Source: a virus
DNA length: 44,444 nucleotides
Virus record (IMG/VR): IMGVR_UViG_3300028025_004664
Span: 1 to 44,444 of that record
Reading direction: 5' to 3' (one strand)
Below, in pieces: positions 109-44,444 of the stretch; positions within the stretch are counted from its first letter, which is position 1, and every line of letters begins with the position of its first letter. The translations under genes and the position numbers were made by a program. The notes beneath the pieces were generated by a model. That model worked only from the letters and a program-made list of their open reading frames with translations. It was not told the origin of the DNA and searched no databases.

Positions 109-420
109 ATGAAAATTCTTGCTTTTAAACTAATCACTAATGAAGAAGTACTTGCCGAAGTTGAATCGGAATCCGAAACTGAATTTGTATTATGCAATCC
201 TGTCGGTATTGCGGTTGTACGTGGTAAAGATGGTCAACCAAACGTAGGTTTTGCACCATTCCCATTACATTCCGAACAAAAGAGTGGTTCTACTCTTGCC
301 ATCGCTAAGAAGAATGTAGTATACTCCTATGTTCCTGCTGAAGATTTTGTATCTAATTACAATCAGATTTTTGGCACAGGTATTATTCTTCCAGGCCAAC
401 AACAAATAATTACAGGTTAA
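109..420 (+). CDS. Small conserved phage protein, possibly Sm-like beta-barrel
   Basis: This 103-residue protein is the first gene after the promoter at 16-44 and directly precedes DNA polymerase, whose ATG overlaps its stop codon (TAATG). The N-terminus reads as K-L-I-T-x-E-E-V-L-A-E, followed by a short strand-rich stretch, an NPV turn and a conserved C-terminal F-x-x-N-Y-N-x-I-F-G helix. This pattern recurs in small proteins next to replication genes in marine T4-like phages and looks like a small beta-barrel of Sm/LSm type. That fold is an inference from strand pattern; no catalytic residues are visible. An RNA-binding or regulatory role is possible but unproven. Confidence 0.75.
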   Translation: MKILAFKLITNEEVLAEVESESETEFVLCNPVGIAVVRGKDGQPNVGFAPFPLHSEQKSGSTLAIAKKNVVYSYVPAEDFVSNYNQIFGTGIILPGQQQIITG

Positions 421-2954
421 TGACAAGTTTCTATACAAATGTCCAGTCTATTGCTGGACACATTCTCTATCGTGGTGTTCTAGATGGTAAAAGAGTCAAA
501 CAAAAGATTGAATACTCACCATCTTTATACATCTCAACCAATAAGAAAACTGAATATCGTTCATTAGATGGCGAGCCGTTGCAACGCAAGTTGTTTGGTA
601 CCATCTATGAAGCCAAAGATTATTTGGATAAATTCAAAGATGTTTCTAATTCCAGAATCTTTGGTAATACAAGGTATGAATATGCCTATATTGCCGAACA
701 TCATCCTGACATGGTTGAATGGGACCAAGATAAGATTCTTGTGGCTGTCGTTGACATTGAGGTGGGTTCGGAGAATGGTTTCCCTGACCCCTACGATGCG
801 AATGAACCAATCACAGCCATTGCTATCACCTATATGGGTAGTCCACCTATCGTTCTTGGATGTGGTGATTATGTGGTTCAAGGTGATGAGACTTATATCA
901 AGTGCCGTGATGAATGGACTCTTTGTAAGAAGTTTATTGAAATCTGGTCTCGTAAATGTCCAGATGTTATCACTGGCTGGAACACCAAGTTCTTTGATAT
1001 CCCATATCTGATTAACCGATTCAATAAAATTCTCGGTGAAGATGATACTAAGAAATTATCTCCATGGAACTTCATTAAAAATCGTACAACTAACATCAAC
1101 GGCCGTCAACTGATTGCATATGAAATTGTTGGTGTTGCTTCACTTGACTACATTGAACTATACAAATGGTATGCTCCTGGCGGAAAGTCACAAGAGTCCT
1201 ATCGTTTAGATAACATCGCACAAGTGGAACTTGGTGATGGTAAAATCTCATATGATGAATATGAAAACTTACATCAACTTTACAGACTGAATTATCAAAA
1301 GTTTATTGAATATAACATCAAAGACGTTGACTTGATTCTCCGTTTGGAAGATAAGTTGAAGTTGATTGAATTGGCTTTGACTTTGGCATATGACACTAAA
1401 TCAAACTACGAAGATGTATTTGCACAGACTCGTATGTGGGATTCTCTGACATATTCCTATCTGTTGAAACAGAACATTATTGTACCACCAAAAGTCATTC
1501 AAGAAAAAGATGCAGCATTTGAAGGTGCATATGTTAAAGAAGTACAAGTTGGTCTACATGATTATGTGGCCAGTTTTGACTTGAACAGTTTGTATCCACA
1601 TTTGATGATGCAATACAATATCAGTCCAGAAACTCTGATTGAACCAGAAAACTATACAGAAGAAATGCGTAAAGTTATTTCCTCTGGTGTTACTGTTGAT
1701 AAACTCTTGAACTGTCAAATTGACACCTCAAGATTAGAGGGTGTGACATTGACACCTAATGGCCAATTCTTTAGAACTGACATTCAAGGTTTCTTGCCTA
1801 AGATGATGGAAGAAATGTATGAAGATAGAAAGAAATTTAAGAACCTAATGATTCAGGCCAAAAAAGAATATGAGGTTGAAAAAGATGAATCTAAAAAATA
1901 CGAAATCGAAAAACGTATTGCCAGATATGACAACCTACAGTTAGCTAAAAAGGTATCGCTTAACTCTGCTTATGGTGCTTTGGGTTCTCAATATTTCAGG
2001 TTTTACGATTTGCGTATGGCCTTGGGTGTCACCACTGCTGGTCAATTAAGTATCCGTTGGATTGAAAATAAAATTAACGGTTACATGAACAAACTATTAT
2101 CTACAGAAGAAATTGATTATGTTATCGCCTCGGACACAGACTCTATATATCTCAAGCTTGGTCCACTTGTTGATAAAGTGTATTCTAAAAAGACGGATGT
2201 TAATCAGATTATCGCCTTCATGGACCGTGTCTGTGAAGATAAGATTCAACCGTACATTGACAAGAGTTATCAGGAGCTTGCTACGTATGTCCATGCGTAT
2301 GACCAAAAGATGCAAATGAAACGTGAAGGTTTGGCGAACAAAGGTATTTGGATTGCCAAGAAGCGTTACATTCTAAACATCTACAATAATGAAGGTGTTC
2401 AGTATGCAGAACCTAAGATGAAAGTCATGGGTCTTGAAATGGTTAAATCATCCACACCTGCAGCAATCCGTGTTAAGATGAAAGATTCTATCAAGTTGAT
2501 TATCAATGGTACAGAAGAAGATATCCATAAATTCATTGCTGACTTTAGGGAAGAATTCAGAAAGATGCCACCAGAAGAAATCTCCACACCTCGTGGTATG
2601 AATGGTTTGAAAACCTATACTGATGCGGTATCAATGTATAAAAAAGGTACACCAATCCATGTGAAAGGTGCCATTCTGTATAATCACCACTTGAAACAAC
2701 TTGGTTTAACCAAGAAATATGAGTTGATTAAAGAAGGTGAGAAAATCAAATACACGTATTTGAAGATGCCAAATCCATTTAAAGAAACCGTTATTTCATA
2801 TCCATCCAGATTACCAAAAGAATTTGAGCTTGACAAATATGTAGATTATGATTTACAATTCGATAAAACTTTCTTAGACCCAATCCGTGGCATTTTGGAT
2901 TGTATTGGTTGGAAAACTGAGAAGGGTAATTCTTTAGAGGACTTCTTTTCATGA
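420..2954 (+). CDS. 43: DNA polymerase, family B (T4 gp43-like)
   Basis: Replicative DNA polymerase of 844 residues, close to the roughly 900 of T4 gp43. The 3'-5' exonuclease motifs are present: Exo I with D112 and E114 (VDIEVG), Exo II around N188 and D193 (GWNTKFFDIPY), and Exo III around Y298 and D302 (YNIKDVD). The polymerase motifs are motif A DLNSLYP with D387, motif B KKVSLNSAYG with N515, and motif C SDTDS with D572 and D574. All catalytic acids are therefore intact and the protein should polymerise and proofread. It starts inside the stop codon of the previous gene and ends with an ATGA overlap into the next one, so it is translated as part of the replication operon. I see no intein or split, although gp43 is split in some T4 relatives. 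Confidence 0.98.
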   Translation: MTSFYTNVQSIAGHILYRGVLDGKRVKQKIEYSPSLYISTNKKTEYRSLDGEPLQRKLFGTIYEAKDYLDKFKDVSNSRIFGNTRYEYAYIAEHHPDMVEWDQDKILVAVVDIEVGSENGFPDPYDANEPITAIAITYMGSPPIVLGCGDYVVQGDETYIKCRDEWTLCKKFIEIWSRKCPDVITGWNTKFFDIPYLINRFNKILGEDDTKKLSPWNFIKNRTTNINGRQLIAYEIVGVASLDYIELYKWYAPGGKSQESYRLDNIAQVELGDGKISYDEYENLHQLYRLNYQKFIEYNIKDVDLILRLEDKLKLIELALTLAYDTKSNYEDVFAQTRMWDSLTYSYLLKQNIIVPPKVIQEKDAAFEGAYVKEVQVGLHDYVASFDLNSLYPHLMMQYNISPETLIEPENYTEEMRKVISSGVTVDKLLNCQIDTSRLEGVTLTPNGQFFRTDIQGFLPKMMEEMYEDRKKFKNLMIQAKKEYEVEKDESKKYEIEKRIARYDNLQLAKKVSLNSAYGALGSQYFRFYDLRMALGVTTAGQLSIRWIENKINGYMNKLLSTEEIDYVIASDTDSIYLKLGPLVDKVYSKKTDVNQIIAFMDRVCEDKIQPYIDKSYQELATYVHAYDQKMQMKREGLANKGIWIAKKRYILNIYNNEGVQYAEPKMKVMGLEMVKSSTPAAIRVKMKDSIKLIINGTEEDIHKFIADFREEFRKMPPEEISTPRGMNGLKTYTDAVSMYKKGTPIHVKGAILYNHHLKQLGLTKKYELIKEGEKIKYTYLKMPNPFKETVISYPSRLPKEFELDKYVDYDLQFDKTFLDPIRGILDCIGWKTEKGNSLEDFFS

Positions 2955-5345: not shown

Positions 5346-6699
5346 TGATGATTACCTACGTAAAGTATTACCATTTCTAAAGACAGATTATTTTACGGAT
5401 AGAACCGACAGGACACTTTTTGATGAAATTACATCGTTCACAGAAACTTACAATTCTCCGCCAACGGTTGAAGCACTTGTATTGGCCGTCAAAGAAAAAC
5501 GAAATCTCACAGATGATGAAGTGGAGAAGTGTCAAACTTATCTACAAGAGATTGAACAAACTAAAGATACAGAATCCAAGATTCAATGGCTTGTTGACAA
5601 AACCGAACAGTTCTGCCAAGAGAAAGCCATATACAATGCAGTACTGGGGTCCATTTCTATTCTCGATGGAAAAGACAAAACCAACGACAAAGGTTCGATT
5701 CCCAAAATACTATCGGATGCCTTGGCGATAACCTTTGATACATCCGTTGGTCACGATTACCTTGAAAATTCCGATGAACGATATGAATTCTATCATAGAA
5801 AAGAAGAAAGAATTCCATTTGACCTCGACTTATTCAACAAGATAACCAAAGGTGGTTTACCTAAGAAAACATTGAACATTGCTTTGGCAGGAACTGGTGT
5901 TGGTAAATCATTGTTCATGTGTCACGTTGCTGCAGGTGCCATGGTACAAGGCAAGAATGTTTTGTATATTACCATGGAAATGGCCGAAGAAAAGATTGCT
6001 GAACGCATTGATGCTAATATGTTGAATGTCACTATTGATGACCTTATGAGTTTACCGAAAGAAATGTATGATAAGAAAATTACTAAACTACGTGAAAAGA
6101 CTGTTGGCAAACTTATCATTAAAGAATATCCAACAGCATCTGCAAGCAGCATACATTTTCGTACCTTACTCAACGAGCTCAATCTTAAAAAGTCTTTTGT
6201 ACCTGATATCATTTTTATTGATTATCTTAATATCTGTTGCAGTTCTAGGATCAAAGCAGGAGCCAACGTCAATTCATACTCTTATGTCAAATCAATCGCA
6301 GAAGAATTGCGAGGTCTTGCAGTTGAGTTCGGAGTACCAATTGTTTCTGCTACACAAACCACAAGGAGTGGTTTTACAAGTTCCGATCCCGGACTTGAGG
6401 ACACAAGTGAGTCTTTTGGTTTGCCAGCAACCGCTGACTTGATGTTTGCCTTGATTTCTTCCGAAGAACTGGAAGAACTTGGTCAGATTATGGTTAAGCA
6501 ATTAAAGAATCGTTACAATGATCCAACATTTCATAAGAGATTTACTTTGGGTATTGACAGGTCAAAAATGAGACTGTATGATATTGAACAATCAGCACAA
6601 CAAGGTTTGGCTGATGCTGGTCACACAGATAAACCACTAAACACATTTGGTGACCGTGAACGACCACAGAAAAAACAATTTACTGGATTTAAAGTATGA
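5305..6699 (+). CDS. 41: Replicative DNA helicase (T4 gp41-like, DnaB family)
   Basis: Ring helicase of about 464 residues that unwinds DNA at the phage fork and pairs with the primase encoded at 29093. An N-terminal helical domain precedes a RecA-like motor with Walker A GTGVGKS at residues 196-202, an ITMEMAEEKIAERID segment typical of DnaB-family helicases, a Walker B FIDYLN, and a SATQTTRSG motif. The ATG at 5305 is preferred because AGGAAG at 5293-5298 is suitably spaced and the encoded start (M-K-L-E-Q-T-I-L) resembles gp41. A TTG at 5302 is also in frame. The start lies inside the preceding gene, giving a 41-base out-of-frame overlap and probable translational coupling. Confidence 0.96.
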   Translation: MKLEQTILKNLIYNDDYLRKVLPFLKTDYFTDRTDRTLFDEITSFTETYNSPPTVEALVLAVKEKRNLTDDEVEKCQTYLQEIEQTKDTESKIQWLVDKTEQFCQEKAIYNAVLGSISILDGKDKTNDKGSIPKILSDALAITFDTSVGHDYLENSDERYEFYHRKEERIPFDLDLFNKITKGGLPKKTLNIALAGTGVGKSLFMCHVAAGAMVQGKNVLYITMEMAEEKIAERIDANMLNVTIDDLMSLPKEMYDKKITKLREKTVGKLIIKEYPTASASSIHFRTLLNELNLKKSFVPDIIFIDYLNICCSSRIKAGANVNSYSYVKSIAEELRGLAVEFGVPIVSATQTTRSGFTSSDPGLEDTSESFGLPATADLMFALISSEELEELGQIMVKQLKNRYNDPTFHKRFTLGIDRSKMRLYDIEQSAQQGLADAGHTDKPLNTFGDRERPQKKQFTGFKV

Positions 6700-7805
6700 T
6701 TTTAACTAGAGATGATGCACTATATTGTGCTAAAGCTTTCCATGATTATTTTAGTGACATTGGAAGTATTGAACAATACATGCGTGATGAGAAATTAAAA
6801 TCACTTGAAGATTTGGAGACTTCATTGTTTCCACCAGAAGATGATTTGTTTTCTGATTTCTTAATGCACCCAAATGATATGGATATTGAAGTATGTGAAA
6901 TACCAAATAACACTTGGGAAACATTGTTGAGTATTACTTCATCTCATGTTAACAAAGCACCAGTTGGAAAAAATATACAGTTGGCTGTAAAAGAAAAGAA
7001 CACAGGAAAGATTCTAGGTTTTATTCGTTTGGGTTCACCAGTAATCTATATGAAACCACGTAATGAATTGCTTGGTCAGGTTTGGATTCAGAATCCTGAT
7101 ACATCCAAACGATTCAATGAATCCACTATTATGGGTTTTGTAATTGTGCCAGCACAGCCATTTGGATTTAATTATCTTGGTGGTAAACTTCTTGCTGCAA
7201 TTTGTACTTCACATACTGTCAGAGAAATAGTAAACAAAAAATACAATTCAAATATTTGTTTATTTGAAACTACTAGTTTATATGGTACTGCTAAAACTGT
7301 ATCACAATACGATGGTATGAAACCATATATTCGATTCAAAGGTCTAACAGAATCAGATATGGTGCCGATGATGCATGGACCAAGATATATTGCTTTAAAA
7401 GATTATGTTGAAAGTAGAGTTGGAGATTTGTTGGCTGGAGATACATCAACCACAAGCCGTAAGCTAAGAACTTTTACCAAGATTATAGCTTTGACTAAAG
7501 CAGCACTTAAAGGTACTACTGAAGGAGAGGCATTCCATTTAACGATTGAGAACGCTAAAAGGTTGACAGAAAAGAAAAGATATTATGTTTCTGATTTTGG
7601 ATACAGTAATATGGTAGACTTCATGGCATGTAAAACTGATAAATTATTACCTGGTGAAAATTATCACAAACATGAATTGAATAACATCGTATCGTGGTGG
7701 AAACAAAAAGCATCTAACAGATATGATACACTTAAACAAGAAGGTCGATTGAGAACAGAACTTGAAATCTGGACTTCAGGAAAAGAGATTCAAATTATCA
7801 GATAA
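6696..7805 (+). CDS. DruA/DUF4338-like protein
   Basis: A 369-residue protein starting in an ATGA overlap with gp41. The core, about residues 105-235, begins with LGFIRLGSP and continues with a segment at about 146-164 (MGFVIVPAQPFG, then NYLGGKLLA), followed by FETTSLYG, a Q-Y-D-G-M-K-P loop and RFKGLTESD. This order (small-hydrophobic IVP, LGGKLL, ETTSLYG, G-T/GLT) resembles proteins annotated DUF4338, the family that includes DruA of the Druantia anti-phage system. Related proteins occur in many phages and their biochemical activity is not established. The C-terminal third is basic and helical and could bind nucleic acid. It follows the helicase directly, so it is probably expressed with replication genes. 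Family assignment is from memory of the motif pattern. Confidence 0.7.
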   Translation: MILTRDDALYCAKAFHDYFSDIGSIEQYMRDEKLKSLEDLETSLFPPEDDLFSDFLMHPNDMDIEVCEIPNNTWETLLSITSSHVNKAPVGKNIQLAVKEKNTGKILGFIRLGSPVIYMKPRNELLGQVWIQNPDTSKRFNESTIMGFVIVPAQPFGFNYLGGKLLAAICTSHTVREIVNKKYNSNICLFETTSLYGTAKTVSQYDGMKPYIRFKGLTESDMVPMMHGPRYIALKDYVESRVGDLLAGDTSTTSRKLRTFTKIIALTKAALKGTTEGEAFHLTIENAKRLTEKKRYYVSDFGYSNMVDFMACKTDKLLPGENYHKHELNNIVSWWKQKASNRYDTLKQEGRLRTELEIWTSGKEIQIIR

Positions 7806-12332: not shown

Positions 12333-13006
12333 AAATAGCATTATGTTTTGCTGGCCAAGCCAGAAGTTTTGAAAAAGGTTATGAATATTACAAGCGTAAT
12401 CTTTTTGACCATTATGATGTGGATGTATACATTCATACATGGAAGTTTTTGAAACAAAATGATTTGGTTGCATTATATAAGCCAAAGGCTTGTGAGTTTG
12501 AAATACCACCACAAGGCGATTACAACTCAAAATATACCAATACACCAAATGCCCAAAAATATCCTCCAAAAAATACATACAATCAATTCTATTCACTCTA
12601 TCATGTTAATCAATTGATTCAAGGGGAGTATGATTGGGTTATTCGGAGTAGAACCGATTATGCTTTAAATACATTCATTCCTTTTTCAGAATTGGATAAT
12701 ACCAAGTTGTATATACCAAATTGTCGAATGGTACCAGAAAGAGATTTTGGCAATGACCAGTTTGCTTTTGGTTCACAAGAAACTATGATAAAATATATGT
12801 CAACGTTTGTCAATGGTGATAAGTATTATTATGCTGGAACACAATTTATTGGTGAAGATTTGATGAGAGCCAATTTACATGAACACAATTTACATGGTGA
12901 AAATCTTGTTTATGTTGATATGAATAATCCTTTTCCTCCAGGTCCACATAATGGCACATGGCATTCTTTGATACGAGATGATGTTGACCAATGGAACAAA
13001 TTATAA
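12329..13006 (+). CDS. Glycosyltransferase-like protein, paralogue 3 of 3
   Basis: A 225-residue protein with K-I-A-L-C-F-A-G-Q-A-R-S-F at the start, D-V-Y-I-H-T-W in the second strand and W-V-I-R-S-R-T-D-Y (R108, T109, D110) at the putative active site. It shows the clearest version of the motif plan shared with the two preceding genes. A Q-F-A-F-G-S segment follows, similar to the acceptor loop of capsular transferases. It overlaps the kinase-like gene by 16 bases. Function is inferred from motif plan and cassette context. Confidence 0.7.
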   Translation: MKIALCFAGQARSFEKGYEYYKRNLFDHYDVDVYIHTWKFLKQNDLVALYKPKACEFEIPPQGDYNSKYTNTPNAQKYPPKNTYNQFYSLYHVNQLIQGEYDWVIRSRTDYALNTFIPFSELDNTKLYIPNCRMVPERDFGNDQFAFGSQETMIKYMSTFVNGDKYYYAGTQFIGEDLMRANLHEHNLHGENLVYVDMNNPFPPGPHNGTWHSLIRDDVDQWNKL

Positions 13007-13743
13007 AAGAACTTAAAGGACATTCAGGTGCTCAGATTTTTTTAATGAAAAATGAAAGTGGTCTTTTTGTTCGTAAAACAGATAATATAGAAAGAAATAT
13101 AGAACGATTGACCGTATTACATAGTGTTGGTTATCCTGTTCCTACTATTTACAGTCATACAAAAACTCAAGTTGATATGCAGTACATACATGGTTTAGAT
13201 ATGAAAACATATTTGACACACAATAATATTGGTGATTTGTCAAAGTTTATTATTGCGACATTCAAAGCATTTTCATCCGAATCTATTGAAAAGGATTATA
13301 CCGAAACATATCATCAAAAGTTGAAATGGTTGGAATCAAATACAGATTTACCTTTTACTAAAGATGAATTGATAGATAAACTTCCAAAATTATTACCATC
13401 ATCAATATATCATGGTGACTTGACTTTAGAAAACATCATACATTCAGATAGTGGATTCTACATGATTGATCCAGTAACAACTGATTATGATTCATATATT
13501 TTTGATATTGGTAAAATGAGACAAGATATGGAGTGTAAATGGTTCTTACGTGGAACTGACATTATGTTGGACACCAAACTACAACAATTACAGGACACAA
13601 TCAAAGAATCTTTTCCATATGCGTTTGATGATTCTATATTGATTGTAATGTTACTGAGAGTATTATCACATTGTCAAAAAGGTGATGATGATTATAAATT
13701 TTTAATGAAGAATATAAAAAAATTATGGGAGAATTTGAAATGA
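12991..13743 (+). CDS. APH / choline-kinase-like phosphotransferase
   Basis: A 250-residue small-molecule kinase of the aminoglycoside phosphotransferase fold. The Brenner motif Y-H-G-D-L-T-L-E-N (H141, D143, N148) supplies the catalytic base and metal ligand, and M-I-D-P-V with D160 is the DFG-like metal site. The N-lobe is short. It is directly followed, in an ATGA overlap, by a nucleotidyltransferase. The kinase-plus-nucleotidyltransferase order matches LicA-LicC (choline phosphorylation, then CDP-choline synthesis) and other capsule-decoration pathways. I infer that it phosphorylates a small alcohol, amino-alcohol or sugar destined for nucleotide activation; the substrate cannot be read from sequence. 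Confidence 0.8.
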   Translation: MEQIIKELKGHSGAQIFLMKNESGLFVRKTDNIERNIERLTVLHSVGYPVPTIYSHTKTQVDMQYIHGLDMKTYLTHNNIGDLSKFIIATFKAFSSESIEKDYTETYHQKLKWLESNTDLPFTKDELIDKLPKLLPSSIYHGDLTLENIIHSDSGFYMIDPVTTDYDSYIFDIGKMRQDMECKWFLRGTDIMLDTKLQQLQDTIKESFPYAFDDSILIVMLLRVLSHCQKGDDDYKFLMKNIKKLWENLK

Positions 13744-14768
13744 GAGTAATTGTACCAGCAGCTGGATTGTCAACACGGTTTCCTGATATGAAACCGAAAT
13801 ATCTTCTTTATGATTACAAACATGAATTGATGATTGCCAATTCTATCAGACCATTTTTACGTGAAGGTTATAAAGTTACAATTGGTATACTTAAAGAACA
13901 CGATGAGAAATATAATGCAACACAATTTATCAATTATGAATTTGGTGATTCTGTAGATGTTGTTGTTCTGGATGTACCCACAAAAGGTCCTGCTGATACA
14001 GTGTTTCAGATTATTGAAAAACTTGGTCTATACTCAGAACCAATATTCATCAAAGACTGTGATAGTTTCTTTGAACATGATATCTCAGAAGGCAATTATG
14101 TCTGTGTTTCTAAAATATCAGACCATGAGTTTCTAAAGAAAATTGCTTCTAAGAGTTTTACTGTGGCCAACAATCAAGGTATAATCACCGACATTGTAGA
14201 AAAAGAAGTAGTATCAGATACATTCTGTGTTGGTGGTTACAAGTTCTCATCCGCTTTGATGTACAAAGAAGCCTTTAAACGATTGAGTAGTGAACGTGAA
14301 GTCTTTGTTTCGGATGTAATTAGTGTTTGTATTGGTGATATGAATATCTTCAATGAGAAGAAAGTACGTGATTATACTGATGTTGGCACGGCACAAGATT
14401 GGTTTGAATATAACGACAAACCTGTAATCTTCTGTGATATTGATGGTACAATCATTATCAACCAAGGTCGAGTTGGTACTAACAGTTATACGGACAAACC
14501 TATACCACTAGAAAAAAATATCAAAAGACTTCTGGAACTACAAGACAAAGGTGCTCAGTTTGTTTTTACTACAGCAAGAAAGAATGAACACAAAGCACTA
14601 ACAAGAGATATGTTATATGATTTGGGATTCAAAAGTTTTGATTTGATTACTGGACTACAGAATTCAAGACGTATTTTGATTAATGATTACAATGAAGCTA
14701 ATCCATTTCCGAGAGCAGAATCAGTCAATATCAGAAGAAACTCAGACAATCTAAGTGACTTTCTATGA
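13740..14768 (+). CDS. Nucleotidyltransferase-HAD fusion protein
   Basis: A bifunctional protein of about 342 residues. Residues 1-225 form a sugar-phosphate or phosphocholine nucleotidyltransferase: V-I-V-P-A-A-G-L-S-T-R-F (3-14) with the K-P-K-Y motif (18-21), then K-D-C-D-S for the metal site. Residues 228-340 form a HAD-superfamily domain with F-C-D-I-D-G-T (D233, D235) and a later F-T-T-A-R. The ATG at 13740 is preferred (GGGAG just upstream, ATGA overlap with the kinase) over the in-frame ATG at 13725. A transferase fused to a phosphatase or kinase-like HAD domain suggests one polypeptide that processes a phosphorylated intermediate and activates it as CDP or NDP. Substrate is unknown. 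Confidence 0.85.
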   Translation: MRVIVPAAGLSTRFPDMKPKYLLYDYKHELMIANSIRPFLREGYKVTIGILKEHDEKYNATQFINYEFGDSVDVVVLDVPTKGPADTVFQIIEKLGLYSEPIFIKDCDSFFEHDISEGNYVCVSKISDHEFLKKIASKSFTVANNQGIITDIVEKEVVSDTFCVGGYKFSSALMYKEAFKRLSSEREVFVSDVISVCIGDMNIFNEKKVRDYTDVGTAQDWFEYNDKPVIFCDIDGTIIINQGRVGTNSYTDKPIPLEKNIKRLLELQDKGAQFVFTTARKNEHKALTRDMLYDLGFKSFDLITGLQNSRRILINDYNEANPFPRAESVNIRRNSDNLSDFL

Positions 14769-23579: not shown

Positions 23580-24449
23580 ATGTCATCTTGGGGAAATAAC
23601 GATAACGCAGCTAACGCACCTTACTGGGCTGTTGAGACAGTAGTTTCAACAAATGCGCCGACTGCATCCGCACCAACAGCTGCAAACGTTGCATTGCTGT
23701 ATGGTAATACACAATTCCAGGCATATACACAAAATATGACTGTTGGATTGTTCTTGGTAGATGCTATTGAAACCACTTCTGGTGGTGATAATGTAGTAGA
23801 TATCTCATTGTCAAATCAAGGTTCTGGATATGTTGAAGCACCAGGTGTAACAATTGCATCTAGTGGTGGTGCATATAGTGCAAGTGCAACCGCCAGTATT
23901 GCTGCTGGTAAAGTAAGTAATATAGCAGTTGCAAACACAGGTGTTGGTTACACATCAGATCCAGCGGTTACAATTCAAGTTCCCGTTCTAACTGTTCCAA
24001 CAGCTACAGTTATTGCAGCCAACGATACTATTATGTACACAGGTCACGGCCAAGCAAACGGTGCCGCACTGGTATTTAATTGGGGTGGTACTGCAAACAT
24101 CACTGGTTTGTTAAATGGTACAACATACTTCACTGCACCACTTGATGCAAACAGATTTCAATTGTCAACTACTGCCGCCAACGCAGCTAATGCCGTTGTA
24201 ATCAATCTAACCAGCACTGGTGAAACTGGCCAATTCTTTACTATTGTTGATGGTGTACGTGCAACAGCGGTTGCAAGTCGTGGTTTAAGTCAAAGTGTTG
24301 GTGGTGCAGAACATGCAACACATATTGGTTGGAACTTGAAAACAGTTGGTTCAGGTGGCCGTGCAGGTCGTGTTCAGTATGAAACACTAGTTGCTTTGGC
24401 AAATCCAATTGGTGACGGTTCAGACGATATTTCTTTACCTGACGCTTAA
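23580..24449 (+). CDS. Virion structural protein with GSGY beta repeats
   Basis: A 289-residue protein that is rich in A, G, T, V and N and poor in charge, as expected of a surface-exposed virion protein. It begins M-S-S-W-G-N-N-D-N-A. Two copies of a repeat, N-x-G-[SV]-G-Y-[VT]-x-x-P-x-V-T-I, occur near residues 78-92 and 120-135, linked by alternating small-residue strands. This GSGY repeat occurs in fibre-like and decoration proteins of marine phages. The C-terminus carries H-I-G-W-N-L-K-T-V-G-S-G-G-R-A-G-R. It has its own late promoter, an excellent ribosome binding site and a terminator, so it is probably abundant. Head decoration, neck or fibre roles are all possible. Confidence 0.8.
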   Translation: MSSWGNNDNAANAPYWAVETVVSTNAPTASAPTAANVALLYGNTQFQAYTQNMTVGLFLVDAIETTSGGDNVVDISLSNQGSGYVEAPGVTIASSGGAYSASATASIAAGKVSNIAVANTGVGYTSDPAVTIQVPVLTVPTATVIAANDTIMYTGHGQANGAALVFNWGGTANITGLLNGTTYFTAPLDANRFQLSTTAANAANAVVINLTSTGETGQFFTIVDGVRATAVASRGLSQSVGGAEHATHIGWNLKTVGSGGRAGRVQYETLVALANPIGDGSDDISLPDA

Positions 24450-42015: not shown

Positions 42016-42083
42016 TTGTGACAGGAATATTACGAAGTGTTCATTATTATAGATAATGGAGACACCACAATTAATATTCCAAA
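42013..42083 (+). promoter_or_regulatory. Leader of the PlcP-Agt operon with two mutually exclusive inverted repeats
   Basis: Two perfect inverted repeats share a right-hand region: TAATTGTG (42013-42020) with CACAATTA (42066-42073), and GGAATATTA (42024-42032) with TAATATTCC (42072-42080). The right arms overlap at 42072-42073 and end three bases before the ATG at 42084. No ribosome binding site lies at normal spacing; the nearest, GGAGA (42058-42062), is 21 bases away. Either a translational switch or paired protein-binding sites are possible. Confidence 0.45.
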
Positions 42084-42863
42084 ATGCAAAAAACATACCG
42101 CACCATATTCATTAGTGATGTACACCTTGGCACCAAAGACAGTCAAGCTGACAAACTCAATAATTTTCTAAAAAATAATACATGCGAATCCTTATATCTC
42201 GTTGGAGATATTATTGACGCATGGAGAATCAAACAAAACAAATGGCGTTGGAAACAATCACATACAAATGTGGTTCGCAGAATACTTGGCCATGCCAAAC
42301 GTGGAACTAAAGTCATCTACGTAGCAGGCAACCACGATGAATTCCTTAGACCTTTTATTCAATACAACATTGGGTTCGGTCTGATAGAAGTAGTCAATCA
42401 AACAGAACACGTAGGCGCAGATGGTAAACATTATCTGGTCACACATGGCGACCTATTTGATGGCATTACAAGACTAGCCCCTTGGCTAACACTACTAGGA
42501 GATAAAGCATATGATTTCATTCTTAGACTCAATCGTCAGTATAATTGGATTCGTCATCGTTTTGGTTTTGGGTACTTTAGCCTTAGCCAGTTCCTTAAAC
42601 AACGGGTCAAAAAAGCAGTAGATTTTATATTTCACTTTGAAAAGAATTTATCAGAATATTGTAAGAAACGTGGATTTGATGGTGTAATCTGTGGACATAT
42701 ACATCAAGCTGAGATTAAAGAAATAGATGGTGTTACATACATGAATGATGGTGATTGGGTGGAATCGTGTACCGCACTTGTAGAACACCATAATGGTAAA
42801 TGGGAAATTATAACTTGGACCAAGGAGAGTGATAATGACAAAGACGATATTGATAGTCACTGA
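42084..42863 (+). CDS. plcP: PlcP-like phospholipase C (LpxH-type metallophosphoesterase fold)
   Basis: A 259-residue calcineurin-type phosphoesterase. All metal sites are present: S-D12-V-H14-L-G, G41-D42-I-I-D45, G82-N83-H84-D85-E86, T-H121-G-D and G204-H205-I-H207. Family-specific stretches (Y-L-V-G-D-I-I-D-A-W-R, Y-L-V-T-H-G-D-L-F-D, L-G-D-K-A-Y-D-F, and the end N-D-G-D-W-V-E-S-C-T-A-L-V-E) match bacterial PlcP as I remember it, more than LpxH, which hydrolyses UDP-diacylglucosamine. PlcP removes the headgroup from PE and PG, yielding diacylglycerol, in phosphate-starved alphaproteobacteria including SAR11. The gene overlaps an Agt-like glycosyltransferase by 29 bases, exactly as in bacterial plcP-agt operons. 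PlcP versus LpxH specificity is inferred. Confidence 0.85.
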   Translation: MQKTYRTIFISDVHLGTKDSQADKLNNFLKNNTCESLYLVGDIIDAWRIKQNKWRWKQSHTNVVRRILGHAKRGTKVIYVAGNHDEFLRPFIQYNIGFGLIEVVNQTEHVGADGKHYLVTHGDLFDGITRLAPWLTLLGDKAYDFILRLNRQYNWIRHRFGFGYFSLSQFLKQRVKKAVDFIFHFEKNLSEYCKKRGFDGVICGHIHQAEIKEIDGVTYMNDGDWVESCTALVEHHNGKWEIITWTKESDNDKDDIDSH

Positions 42864-43830
42864 CAATTTACCGGAGCAGATAAATGGTGTCGTTACAACT
42901 TACAAGAATCTGGAAGCGCAGGCTGTTGCTGACGGTTATAATATTGTGTATCTTGACCCCTCTAGATTTCCCCATATTGATGCTCCTCGCTATCCGGAAG
43001 TTAAACTCTCTTGGGTTCGTAAGATTGGTAAGAAGATTAAAGAAATACAACCAGACCATATTCACATCGCAACAGAAGGTCCAGTGGGGCTTGCTTGCCG
43101 TGTGTGGTGTGACCGTAAGAATCTTACTTACAATACCGCTTATCATACTAAGTTTCCCGAAGGCATAAAGAAGTTACTTGGTGTACCTGAGTTTATCACA
43201 TGGGCTTATGTCCGTTGGTTTCATAAACATTCTGGTAAAGTACTCACTACAACAGAAACGATGGTCAATGAACTAAGAGACCACGGGTTCGATGGTAATG
43301 TCATTCCATGGACCAGAGGTGTTGACCGTGATGTATTTTTTCCATTAGAAATTACTGTTGAGAAAAGTCCCGTACTTGTGTGTGTTAGCCGTGTCAGTAA
43401 AGAAAAGAACTTAGAAGATTTCTTTGAACTGGACTTTCCAGGTTCTCACAAGATTATGGTCGGTAACGGACCAATGTTAGAGACATACAAGAAAAAATAT
43501 CCAGATGTAGAATTTGTTGGTTTTAAAACTGGTTCGGCTTTGGCTGACTATTATAGAATGGCTGATGTATTTGTATTCCCGTCCCGTTGGGAAACATTTG
43601 GTATCGTTATGATTGAGGCAATGGCATGTGGTACTCCTGTTGCTGCCTACCCAGCACCAGGTCCTATGGATGTTATCCGAGAAGGTTCTACCGGATTTAT
43701 GGAAAAAGACCTAAGTACAGCAGTATACCGCTGCTTAGCTCTTGACAGAGACAAGGTACTAGAGTATAGTATGGAATGGAGTTGGGAACATTGTTGGAAG
43801 ATATTTAAGGATAACTTAGTACCAGTATGA
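42835..43830 (+). CDS. agt: Agt-like GT4 glycosyltransferase (glycolipid synthase)
   Basis: A GT-B glycosyltransferase of about 331 residues. The N-terminal half has I-L-I-V-T-D-N-L-P-E-Q-I-N-G-V-V-T-T, H-I-H-I-A-T-E-G-P-V-G, Y-H-T-K-F-P-E and R-W-F-H, matching the Agt/SQD2-like family that glycosylates diacylglycerol. The C-terminal half has V-C-V-S-R-V-S-K-E-K-N and the E-x7-E donor motif W-E253-T-F-G-I-V-M-I-E261. The ATG at 42835 is chosen because AAGGAG (42822-42827) precedes it; a GTG at 42829 is in frame. The start lies inside the PlcP-like gene, so translation is coupled. In bacteria Agt converts the diacylglycerol made by PlcP into mono-glycosyl lipids that replace phospholipids. Confidence 0.86.
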   Translation: MTKTILIVTDNLPEQINGVVTTYKNLEAQAVADGYNIVYLDPSRFPHIDAPRYPEVKLSWVRKIGKKIKEIQPDHIHIATEGPVGLACRVWCDRKNLTYNTAYHTKFPEGIKKLLGVPEFITWAYVRWFHKHSGKVLTTTETMVNELRDHGFDGNVIPWTRGVDRDVFFPLEITVEKSPVLVCVSRVSKEKNLEDFFELDFPGSHKIMVGNGPMLETYKKKYPDVEFVGFKTGSALADYYRMADVFVFPSRWETFGIVMIEAMACGTPVAAYPAPGPMDVIREGSTGFMEKDLSTAVYRCLALDRDKVLEYSMEWSWEHCWKIFKDNLVPV

Positions 43831-44444
43831 AGCCAAAGATAGCATTATTTCTACACCAGCCAAAGTGTTCAGTACAATCTGGTAATGGTATAATGCAATC
43901 CCTTTCCCAATATTATGACTTTAAGATATTCACTAAACATAAAGTGGAAGATGATTTCTTTGACGATATCCAAATCACTGCGTTCCCCGGAGGCATTGGC
44001 GATTCCGAATCCTTCAAGTTCCTATTCCGAGAAAACGGAGACACCATAAAACAATTTGTGCGCCGAGGTGGTAAGTATCTCGGTATCTGCATGGGCGGCT
44101 ATTGGGCTGCCAATCACTACTTTGACTTACTTGATGGTATTGAAGCACACCAATACATCACACGTCCCAATACAGACACCAGACGACCTCATGCCAAGAA
44201 CCAACGAGTCCTGTGGTCTGGCGAAGAGCAGAGAATGTTCTTCTACGATGGTCCCGCATTTACTGGTCCTGGTCTTGCTAGGTCAGAGATAATTTCCTTA
44301 TACCCCAATGGCGACCCAATGGCTCTTATACAGGACAATATAGGAGTTATCGGCTGTCATCTAGAAAGTACACCACACTGGTATAATACATACTCATGGA
44401 TGAAGCCTCACTATCATAATGGGAAAGGGATTGCATTATACCAT
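43827..44444 (+). CDS. Class I glutamine-amidotransferase-like protein (BPL_N type), cut by window end
   Basis: At least 206 codons, open to the end of the window. It begins in an ATGA overlap with the GT4 gene, so it belongs to the same operon. The sequence F-P-G-G-I-G, then R-G-G-K-Y-L-G-I-C88-M-G-G-Y-W places a nucleophilic cysteine in an elbow as in class I glutamine amidotransferases and the N-terminal domain of biotin-protein ligases. V-I-G-C-H-L-E-S and H-W near the end may supply the histidine. The downstream domain, if any, is outside the window. Its link to lipid metabolism is only positional. Confidence 0.78.
   Translation, partial: MKPKIALFLHQPKCSVQSGNGIMQSLSQYYDFKIFTKHKVEDDFFDDIQITAFPGGIGDSESFKFLFRENGDTIKQFVRRGGKYLGICMGGYWAANHYFDLLDGIEAHQYITRPNTDTRRPHAKNQRVLWSGEEQRMFFYDGPAFTGPGLARSEIISLYPNGDPMALIQDNIGVIGCHLESTPHWYNTYSWMKPHYHNGKGIALYH

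Follow-up and report, generated by a model that had tools for sequence, protein, structure and literature searches.

The window analysed here, a stretch of 44,444 nucleotides, is a fragment of a T4-like phage in which a metallophosphoesterase gene (42084-42863) overlaps a gene for a GT4 glycosyltransferase (42835-43830). The relevant features are:

42018..42034, minus strand: degenerate Pho-box-like site CGTAATATTCCTGTCAC, with 1 mismatch to TGTMAY-N5-TGTMAY, reversed in the 68-nt gap before plcP
42084..42863, plus strand: PlcP-like metallophosphoesterase, ATG start, 259 aa
42822..42827, plus strand: Shine-Dalgarno-like AAGGAG for the glycosyltransferase, within the 3' end of plcP
42835..43830, plus strand: Agt-like GT4 glycosyltransferase, 331 aa from ATG 42835 or 333 aa from GTG 42829
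43827..44444, plus strand: BPL_N / class I glutamine-amidotransferase-like protein, ATGA overlap with the GT4 gene, exits the contig

The GT4 open reading frame extends from 42829 to 43830 (plus strand, GTG) and contains the ATG at 42835. From this ATG the 29-base overlap claimed in the first-pass annotation follows, and AAGGAG at 42822-42827 is located seven bases 5' of it. The two overlapping genes are present as described there, with both proteins above the Pfam cut-offs (PF00149: 50.6 bits, cut-off 21.5; PF00534: 89.5 bits, cut-off 26.4). The overlap had also been likened to a bacterial operon; such overlaps are frequent in bacteria too, with 23 of 52 plcP-glycosyltransferase pairs (median gap 3 nt with the start codons that we chose). 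Among the 169 distinct viral plcP loci, 54 have a relative of the BPL_N-type protein in their flanks, in 38 cases on the same strand.

By sequence comparison the phosphoesterase is PlcP-like and resembles characterised PlcP more than it does LpxH. It is 50.2% identical to a Sinorhizobium meliloti PlcP, which we take to be the characterised SMc00171 and whose gene adjoins an AHL-synthase gene and a LuxR gene. Residues D12, H14, D42, N83, H121, H205 and H207 (window numbering), presumably the metal ligands, are kept in all 16 viral and all 23 bacterial rows, apart from two bacterial gaps at D12. The same rows without exception carry GNHD in place of GNRD, a motif that is present in E. coli LpxH and that we assume to be diagnostic for LpxH. 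Scores against the LpxH models are far below the cut-offs (TIGR01854: 39.4 bits, cut-off 190.35; NF003743: 51.3 bits, cut-off 134). On model scores, motif and kinship a true LpxH is rejected, in agreement with the initial assignment. LpxH shares the calcineurin-like fold and the metal site with the phage protein but carries GNRD and differs in family scores; its substrate also differs from that of PlcP. Of the bacterial PlcP relatives, the ten that rank closest (L084-L093), for the most part Hyphomonas-like, all lack an adjacent GT4 gene. Database records name such proteins UDP-2,3-diacylglucosamine diphosphatase or hydrolase.

Relatives of the GT4 protein were found at E 1e-20 or better in 158 of 385 alphaproteobacterial genomes, with identities of 38-47% among the matches listed and some weaker ones (E 1e-26 to 1e-45). 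The best 30 matches gave loci, and in 28 of these plcP is directly upstream. By sequence, the window GT4 thus has its nearest cellular kin among the transferases encoded in bacterial plcP operons. SAR11 Agt (GTcp) has a D-x7-E motif and the catalytic dyad His104-Asp256, and its D256E variant loses more than 90% of activity (PMC8231724). The window GT4 keeps His104 and has Glu253 at the position equivalent to Asp256; the dyad (motif FPSxTDTFG) is incomplete. Of the motif sets claimed at first, the PlcP metal ligands and E253-x7-E261 are present, but the Agt set is incomplete. Among the 88 distinct viral GT4 sequences that span the catalytic site, 85 have Glu preceded by Trp there and 3 have Asp (three truncated rows removed, 22 identical copies counted once, window kept separate). 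Glu at this site also occurs in three plcP-adjacent Comamonadaceae. A 44-row GT4 tree, built without E. coli rows, gave two D/E changes, with L133 on a long branch.

Agt residues for UDP-sugar and diacylglycerol were placed on the phage GT4 by motif, and 13 of the 14 residues examined are kept (residue list from PMC8231724). G16, G82, G85, T162, R163, R190, K195, T257, F258, G259, E264 and W320 are kept, 12 of 12, in all 21 viral rows including the window; the bacterial GT4 rows vary (T162 is T in 13 of 23, R163 is R in 18 of 23, W320 is W in 22 of 23). Residues assigned to diacylglycerol binding, H104, T160, R161 and W317, are kept in the window GT4. Strict identity with Agt fails at one catalytic residue (Asp256 to Glu), and an Agt-like function is retained as a reading. 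The proposed membership in the diacylglycerol-glycosylating group is supported by the kinship to plcP-operon transferases but weakened by this one difference from SAR11 Agt. The GT4 of Acinetobacter 'phage' MD-2021a has bacterial-looking gene neighbours and served only as a distant row.

For an unbiased count of linkage we took those loci that PlcP alone had retrieved, 62 distinct viral ones, not the pooled set of 169 (89 with GT4, 74 with GT2, 6 with neither), which includes contigs found via glycosyltransferases; related loci are not independent events. Downstream of plcP, 29 of the 62 carry a GT4 gene, 27 an unrelated GT2 gene, none both and six neither, five of the latter being truncated. 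One of the two families follows plcP in 56 of the 57 distinct PlcP-found loci not truncated there, in the window GT4. In searches from the other side, GT4 alone led to 80 viral loci, 79 of them with plcP upstream, and GT2 alone to 80, of which 77 have it; the remaining four are truncated. In bacteria, a gene for synthesis of phosphorus-free lipids beside plcP is common, not universal. The dN/dS values are 0.041-0.098 in 10 of 11 pairs for PlcP and 0.070-0.179 in 9 of 11 pairs for GT4, with three saturated pairs in both sets together. Because of this purifying selection and the near-perfect linkage across contigs, the pairing of plcP and GT4 is not due to chance.

At E 1e-15, none of 385 alphaproteobacterial genomes has a relative of the GT2 partner; at E 1e-10, 12 of 398 Pseudomonadota genomes have one, with an identity of 25-35%. 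No PlcP was found beside the bacterial GT2 in eight loci, taken from 8 of these 12 genomes with flanks of about 1.5 kb. A fatty-acid desaturase gene is near plcP in 28 of the 169 pooled loci. PstS is encoded near plcP in 27 of 169, always on the strand of plcP (27 of 27). Of 26 long records, 8 encode PstS; the window contains no pstS.

The Pho box consensus consists of tandem CTGTCAT-type half-sites with a 4-bp linker and a period of 11 bp (PMC3511308). Pairs of TGT(A/C)A(C/T) with an exact 11-bp period are found upstream of plcP in 52 of 126 non-redundant loci, other spacings giving 0-2, and in 48 of the 52 the box is located 35-58 nt before the plcP start. A spacing-11 pair precedes 19 of 1359 other ORFs. 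In total, 1.42 Mb contain 110 boxes versus 7 in one shuffle, and 84 of the 110 precede plcP or pstS (58 PlcP, 26 PstS). On the reverse strand the 126 loci also show a peak at this spacing, with 11 loci against 0-2 for the others. This TGTMAY repeat, present before plcP in many relatives, looks like the Pho-box pattern and may represent a PhoB-type operator. Pho boxes are known for some bacterial plcP genes (PMC4796936, PMC8528852).

Within the window, six sites with at most one mismatch stand against 7.2 expected by chance, so that the site at 42018..42034 is not significant by itself, and a search confined to the window gave nothing significant. The case for an operator is built on the relatives. 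The stretch around 42018..42034 is similar in L001-L006, and a perfect forward box is found in none of six distinct loci whose PlcP is at least 86% identical to that of the window. At bacterial plcP loci the strict pattern occurs in 0 of 76, and with one mismatch in 9 of 76. Before plcP of phage Mosig no TGTMAY-type site was found with up to two mismatches. A different 11-bp repeat, YTTAAC-N5-YTTAAC, a pattern chosen after viewing this stretch, occurs once in the 141-kb genome, between pstS and plcP. The S-SRM01 gene has only a two-mismatch TGTMAY-type site upstream, on the minus strand. Phage Pho-box predictions were unreliable in a cyanophage (PMC10976474). A late-promoter motif, TATAAATA, precedes plcP in 74 of 157 cases compared with 39.8 (sd 5.5) in mononucleotide shuffles, which is too weak to build on.

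As host indicators, the window NrdA comes nearest to an Alcaligenes phage (63%), then to a faecal phage clone (62%), with pelagiphages at 53-55%, and the window DNA polymerase to cyanophages (52%). As a sign of the phage nature of the 26 long records, Gp23 was detected in 8 of them and in 0 of 14 control genomes. The family phrog_2, presumably the large terminase, occurs in 18 of 26 (four weak) but also in 11 of 14 control genomes and is not specific. Phage Mosig, which infects SAR11 HTCC1062, encodes PlcP beside pstS; its host is described as lacking plcP in PMC4796936. Trees were calculated from subsets of the rows available: for GT4, 28 of 111 viral and 35 of 85 bacterial ones; for PlcP, 23 of 225 viral and 37 of 108 bacterial ones, the window being among the viral rows. 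The tentative roots, E. coli WaaG, WaaB, WcaI and WcaC for GT4 and E. coli LpxH, gave branches saturated at length 10. Since neither tree is safely rooted, only the split between viral and bacterial sequences was read from them.

Many aquatic phages probably hold a two-gene set that strips phosphate headgroups from host lipids and adds sugar instead. PlcP would take the phosphate-bearing headgroup off host phospholipids and leave diacylglycerol. The GT4 enzyme would glycosylate this diacylglycerol with a UDP-sugar as donor, and the resulting glycolipid would make up for the phospholipid that was lost. The envelope would stay intact and phosphorus would be released for phage DNA. A further step would be needed to free phosphate, because PlcP should release phospho-headgroups. 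Phage DNA is rich in phosphorus, many aquatic hosts are poor in it, and membranes are one of the larger phosphorus pools of the cell. In many related phages the module would lie behind a PhoB-type operator, often together with pstS, and the starvation regulator of the host would switch it on. The idea of a link to phosphate starvation is independently supported by the Pho-box-like sites before plcP and the linked pstS. We consider it quite likely that the locus is a phage phospholipid-to-glycolipid module for phosphate-starved hosts, Pho-regulated in many relatives. What the analysis demonstrates is kinship of the families by sequence, linkage, conserved residues, purifying selection, and the enrichment and position of the operator pattern; what the two enzymes do, which glycolipid results, that PhoB binds and that the phage gains by salvaging phosphorus are inferred.

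The same chemistry could serve another aim, namely a changed envelope that blocks superinfection, protects against cationic peptides or eases assembly or lysis, with phosphorus salvage being secondary. A review makes the case that phage binding changes with lipid renovation (PMC9804370), protection against polymyxin B is described for glycolipids (PMC8528852), and the desaturase genes near plcP in 28 of 169 loci suggest wider membrane tailoring. Pho-box-like sites before plcP and pstS as well as neighbouring pstS, however, tie the module to phosphate status, and we regard this purpose as rather unlikely to be the principal one. A route via LPS, in which an LpxH-type lipid A enzyme and an LPS-core GT4 jointly alter LPS, is highly improbable. 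The solved structures nearest to the PlcP model are indeed LpxH (18-22% identity), LpxH is also closest among solved structures by sequence, records carry the diphosphatase or hydrolase annotation, and pelagimyophage glycosyltransferases have been interpreted as LPS modifiers (PMC7029224). Yet both LpxH model scores and GNHD in place of GNRD contradict this route, and the operon partner and the nearest kin are plcP-type.

Slightly less probable still is an action on phage DNA, nucleotides or virion parts by a nuclease-like phosphoesterase and a DNA- or virion-modifying glycosyltransferase. Among the PHROG matches of the phosphoesterase, a family of DNA-repair exonucleases scores 28.6 bits and an SbcD-like one 19.2 bits, which points this way, and phage glycosyltransferases are able to glycosylate DNA (PMC7029224). 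These scores are low beside 50% identity to bacterial PlcP; moreover, the gene pairing copies a bacterial lipid operon and the residues for diacylglycerol binding are kept.

The preferred lipid module resembles the bacterial plcP-agt operon of SAR11 HTCC7211, Pseudomonas aeruginosa (PA3219-PA3218) and Methylosinus trichosporium OB3b in gene order, both families, the metal site and 13 of the 14 Agt residues compared (PMC4796936, PMC8231724, PMC8528852, PMC9239053). In contrast to this operon, the phage version is phage-borne, mostly has Trp-Glu at the catalytic Asp (85 of 88), can have GT2 as alternative partner and is often near phage pstS. In cyanophages, too, a host phosphate-starvation regulator is in charge of phage genes, with pstS and others controlled by PhoBR of the host (PMC10976474). 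Those are uptake or nucleotide genes with a cyanobacterial Pho box, whereas here lipid genes are preceded by an E. coli-like 11-bp repeat in many relatives. Cyanophage lipid desaturases are known (Roitman 2018, cited in PMC11480375). These also alter host membrane lipids but desaturate acyl chains, whereas a headgroup exchange is proposed here. The first-pass annotation knew of no characterised phage example, which the literature searched did not contradict for PlcP/Agt; no report of a phage plcP was found there.

A more far-reaching reading, about which we are somewhat doubtful, is a portable cassette for 'membrane mining', derived from a bacterial phosphate-starvation trait and switched by host PhoB. 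PlcP would be fixed and the glycosyltransferase swapped, either for an altered Agt (Asp to Glu) or for a phage-evolved GT2 without a plcP-linked bacterial counterpart in the sampled genomes. Non-remodelling hosts, e.g. SAR11 HTCC1062 with Mosig, would gain phospholipid stripping only when infected. Mosig, with PlcP beside pstS, in HTCC1062, reported without plcP (PMC4796936), offers a testable case. The annotation 'UDP-2,3-diacylglucosamine diphosphatase' hides phage plcP-type genes in databases. If a host starvation signal indeed leads phages to strip and re-glycosylate phospholipids, viral genes may be part of the environmental plcP counts that serve as a phosphorus-stress marker, and infection would shift how much lipid and phosphorus aquatic bacteria have at their disposal.

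The 44,444-base virus record carries replication genes of the T4 type, and the two overlapping genes that the first-pass annotation had placed at its right end, for a phosphoesterase and a GT4 glycosyltransferase, were both found there:

DNA polymerase, in the window (phrog_262, 1054.5 bits)
DnaB-like helicase and primase, in the window (PHROG matches)
UvsX, RNase H, ThyX, NrdB and NrdA, in the window
42084-42863, calcineurin-like phosphoesterase, 259 aa
42835-43830, GT4 glycosyltransferase, overlapping the end of the phosphoesterase gene
from 43827 and leaving the contig, BPL_N, glutamine-amidotransferase-like, in ATGA overlap with the GT4 gene

An AAGGAG motif lies seven bases ahead of the GT4 ATG, and the two phage genes evolve under purifying selection. 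Elsewhere in the window, the phage carries a DruA-like protein (6696-7805; PF14236, 34 bits, cut-off 27), Druantia being a defence system. At 12991-14768 an APH-type kinase adjoins a protein that weakly matches nucleotidyltransferases and HAD proteins, with a GT2 and a methyltransferase nearby; this region possibly represents a sugar- or choline-phosphate route. A tRNA-Asn called by ARAGORN at 24210-24303, within the ORF 23580-24449, may be false.

The first protein is PlcP-like, as had been proposed, and lies outside true LpxH. Its scores against two LpxH models (39.4 of 190.35 bits and 51.3 of 134 bits) are far under the cut-offs, its motif reads GNHD in place of the GNRD of E. coli LpxH, and it is 50.2% identical to Sinorhizobium meliloti PlcP, which is annotated as a UDP-2,3-diacylglucosamine diphosphatase. 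AHL-synthase and LuxR genes adjoin S. meliloti plcP, a neighbourhood that we take to be the sinI-sinR surroundings of the characterised SMc00171. The best 80 of at least 577 relatives in bacterial genomes are 51-59% identical to the window protein. Its AlphaFold model has a mean pLDDT of 81.9 and is weaker at about 120-190; the best solved-structure matches are LpxH at 18-22% identity, as expected from the shared fold. In a PlcP tree of 64 rows, for which E. coli LpxH was too distant to serve as root, the 23 viral rows form a single clade (SH-aLRT 100); this clade lies, together with phage Mosig and six bacterial rows, of which five are Hyphomonas-like, in a larger supported grouping. The PlcP homologue of the freshwater cyanophage S-SRM01 (L083:6001-6708) shares 38% identity with the window protein and has no GT4 nearby; the available text of PMC4796936 reports PlcP as largely absent from cyanobacteria.

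For the second protein a full Agt motif set had been claimed. This holds for 13 of the 14 examined positions of SAR11 Agt, whose residues have been probed by mutation (PMC8231724), but not for Asp256, which is Glu253 in the window GT4; according to the available text of that study, Asp256 is catalytic and poorly substituted by Glu. Because of this exchange, and despite the retained positions, we infer from the sequences that the viral GT4, which by other signs would work like Agt, is a variant at the catalytic residue and not a strict Agt; perhaps it uses a different sugar donor. Trp-Glu occupies the site in 85 of 91 distinct viral GT4s (22 identical copies merged; the window protein, also Trp-Glu, tallied apart), Asp in three, and three are truncated short of it. 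Glu is also found there in three plcP-adjacent GT4 proteins of Comamonadaceae, and two D/E changes are required on a 44-row GT4 tree. The structure model (mean pLDDT 92.4) matches BshA, MshA and sucrose-phosphate synthase in fold.

Among the best 80 bacterial plcP relatives, 56 have a GT4, 37-46% identical to the phage one, directly downstream; in two the sequence stops within 208 bases, in one the nearest GT4 is 4.3 kb distant, and 21 have none, including the ten closest to the window PlcP (L084-L093, mostly Hyphomonas-like). A GT4 relative occurs in 158 of 385 sampled alphaproteobacterial genomes, with plcP directly upstream in 28 of the 30 best loci. Matches to plcP and GT4 also adjoin each other on the Pseudomonas aeruginosa plasmid records NZ_CP042268.1, CP075839.1 and NZ_CP137508.1. 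HIMB59 phosphate islands hold an 'LpxH' and a glycosyltransferase (PMC10734472, available text), which may be a mislabelled plcP-agt pair.

Scans of viral contigs gave 302 GT4 relatives, 519 GT2 relatives and at least 588 PlcP relatives, of which the best 80 each were analysed. Loci found through GT4 have plcP upstream on the same strand in 79 cases (73 adjacent, six at about 0.9-1.1 kb), and those found through GT2 in 77, 75 of them adjacent; the one and three exceptions are all truncated contigs. Co-occurrence was likewise recovered from PlcP itself: 56 of 62 loci distinct in plcP DNA have a transferase (29 GT4, 27 GT2). Five of the other six end within 216 bases, and only L026 truly has none: of the viral plcP loci examined, it alone lacks a glycosyltransferase although its downstream sequence is complete (5.9 kb). 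Pooling reduced 235 viral loci to 169 distinct ones, GT-enriched through the way of collection, with GT4 in 89, GT2 in 74, both in none and neither in six. The GT2 (about 236 aa, PF00535) belongs to a family distinct from GT4. It was not found among the 385 alphaproteobacterial genomes (E 1e-15); distant relatives occur in 12 of 398 Pseudomonadota genomes, and plcP was not near them in eight fetched loci. Since two unrelated sugar transferases alternate beside one lipase, glycosylation of the lipase product would be the purpose of the pairing. In 28 of the 169 loci, but not in the window, a gene for a membrane fatty-acid desaturase (PF00487, 49.8 bits; L196:8387-8983, minus strand, and relatives) lies near plcP, which suggests that phages modify lipids more widely.

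PstS (PF12849) is encoded in the flanks of 27 of the 169 loci, always on the plcP strand: ten lie 63-130 nt upstream of plcP, eight just behind the GT gene and the others further away. Long records include it in 8 of 26, Mosig among them. A Pho box consists of at least two CTGTCAT repeats separated by 4-bp linkers (PMC3511308, available text). The 150 nt ahead of plcP, in 126 non-redundant regions, were scanned for pairs of TGT(A/C)A(C/T), with spacings from 6 to 23 each taken separately. Such pairs are present at spacing 11 in 52 regions, at spacing 20 in two and at every other spacing in none; 48 of the 52 sit 35-58 nt upstream of the plcP start. Of 1359 other ORFs in these loci, 19 have a spacing-11 pair. 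With one mismatch, spacing 11 rises to 77 of 126, any other spacing from 7 to 22 reaching at most seven. Loci from the PlcP-only search (best 80 of at least 588) have the box in 22 of 61 distinct cases. Perfect boxes number 110 in 1.42 Mb of pooled loci, against seven in one order-1 Markov shuffle: 58 upstream of PlcP, 26 of PstS, 8 of an Ala-rich protein (L062:5790-6371 and similar loci) and 18 elsewhere. We take the enrichment at spacing 11 and the placement before plcP and pstS as strong evidence for predicted PhoB-type control in the viral group.

Against this stand several observations. No perfect forward box precedes plcP in the six distinct loci whose PlcP is 86% or more identical to that of the window; all that the window itself offers there is a reversed site with one mismatch (42018-42034), and the stretch around it is similar in the viral loci L001-L006. 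The strict pattern occurs in 0 of 76 bacterial loci, and with one mismatch in nine versus 0.1 expected. A cyanophage study describes predicted phage Pho boxes as unreliable (PMC10976474, available text). Apart from these points, the only perfect TGTMAY-N5-TGTMAY pair of the window (409-425, minus strand), at the DNA polymerase gene start on the opposite strand, is not significant, since 0.36 are expected by chance.

The pstS and plcP genes of Mosig lie next to each other in divergent orientation, with no TGTMAY-type box upstream of plcP and no GT4 relative within 6 kb. The 150-nt gap between them holds the single copy of YTTAAC-N5-YTTAAC, an 11-bp repeat, in the 141-kb genome (94053-94069; L082, MT647606.1); a reversed control pattern has none. 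The repeat resembles the cyanobacterial Pho-box consensus PyTTAAPyPyT/A (PMC10976474, available text) and is possibly a second type of Pho box, although only a lead, because the pattern was chosen after the stretch was viewed. The host of Mosig, HTCC1062, is without plcP in the available text of PMC4796936.

In the literature searched, which covered few subscription papers so that an earlier mention is possible, no paper joins plcP with 'auxiliary metabolic', and among the papers listed by related searches none was seen to report a phage-encoded PlcP. The lack of a characterised phage example, which had been remarked on, is not contradicted by these searches. The words lipid, phosphate and hydrolase are absent from the Mosig genome note, and the available text of a pelagimyophage survey lists fabF and desaturase as lipid genes (PMC7029224). 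Bacterial precedent exists for the steps of the mechanism we propose (PMC4796936, PMC8231724, PMC8528852 and PMC9239053, available texts). The protein families, residues, linkage, selection and operator statistics are observed, and the following course is proposed. Under phosphate stress, the host regulator would switch on the plcP and GT genes; PlcP would release diacylglycerol and a phospho-headgroup, the GT would form a glycolipid that maintains the bilayer, and host or phage enzymes would recover the phosphate. What we regard as new is the proposed joining of known enzymes to host Pho control, which phages are already known to exploit, together with an altered catalytic residue and an alternative transferase.
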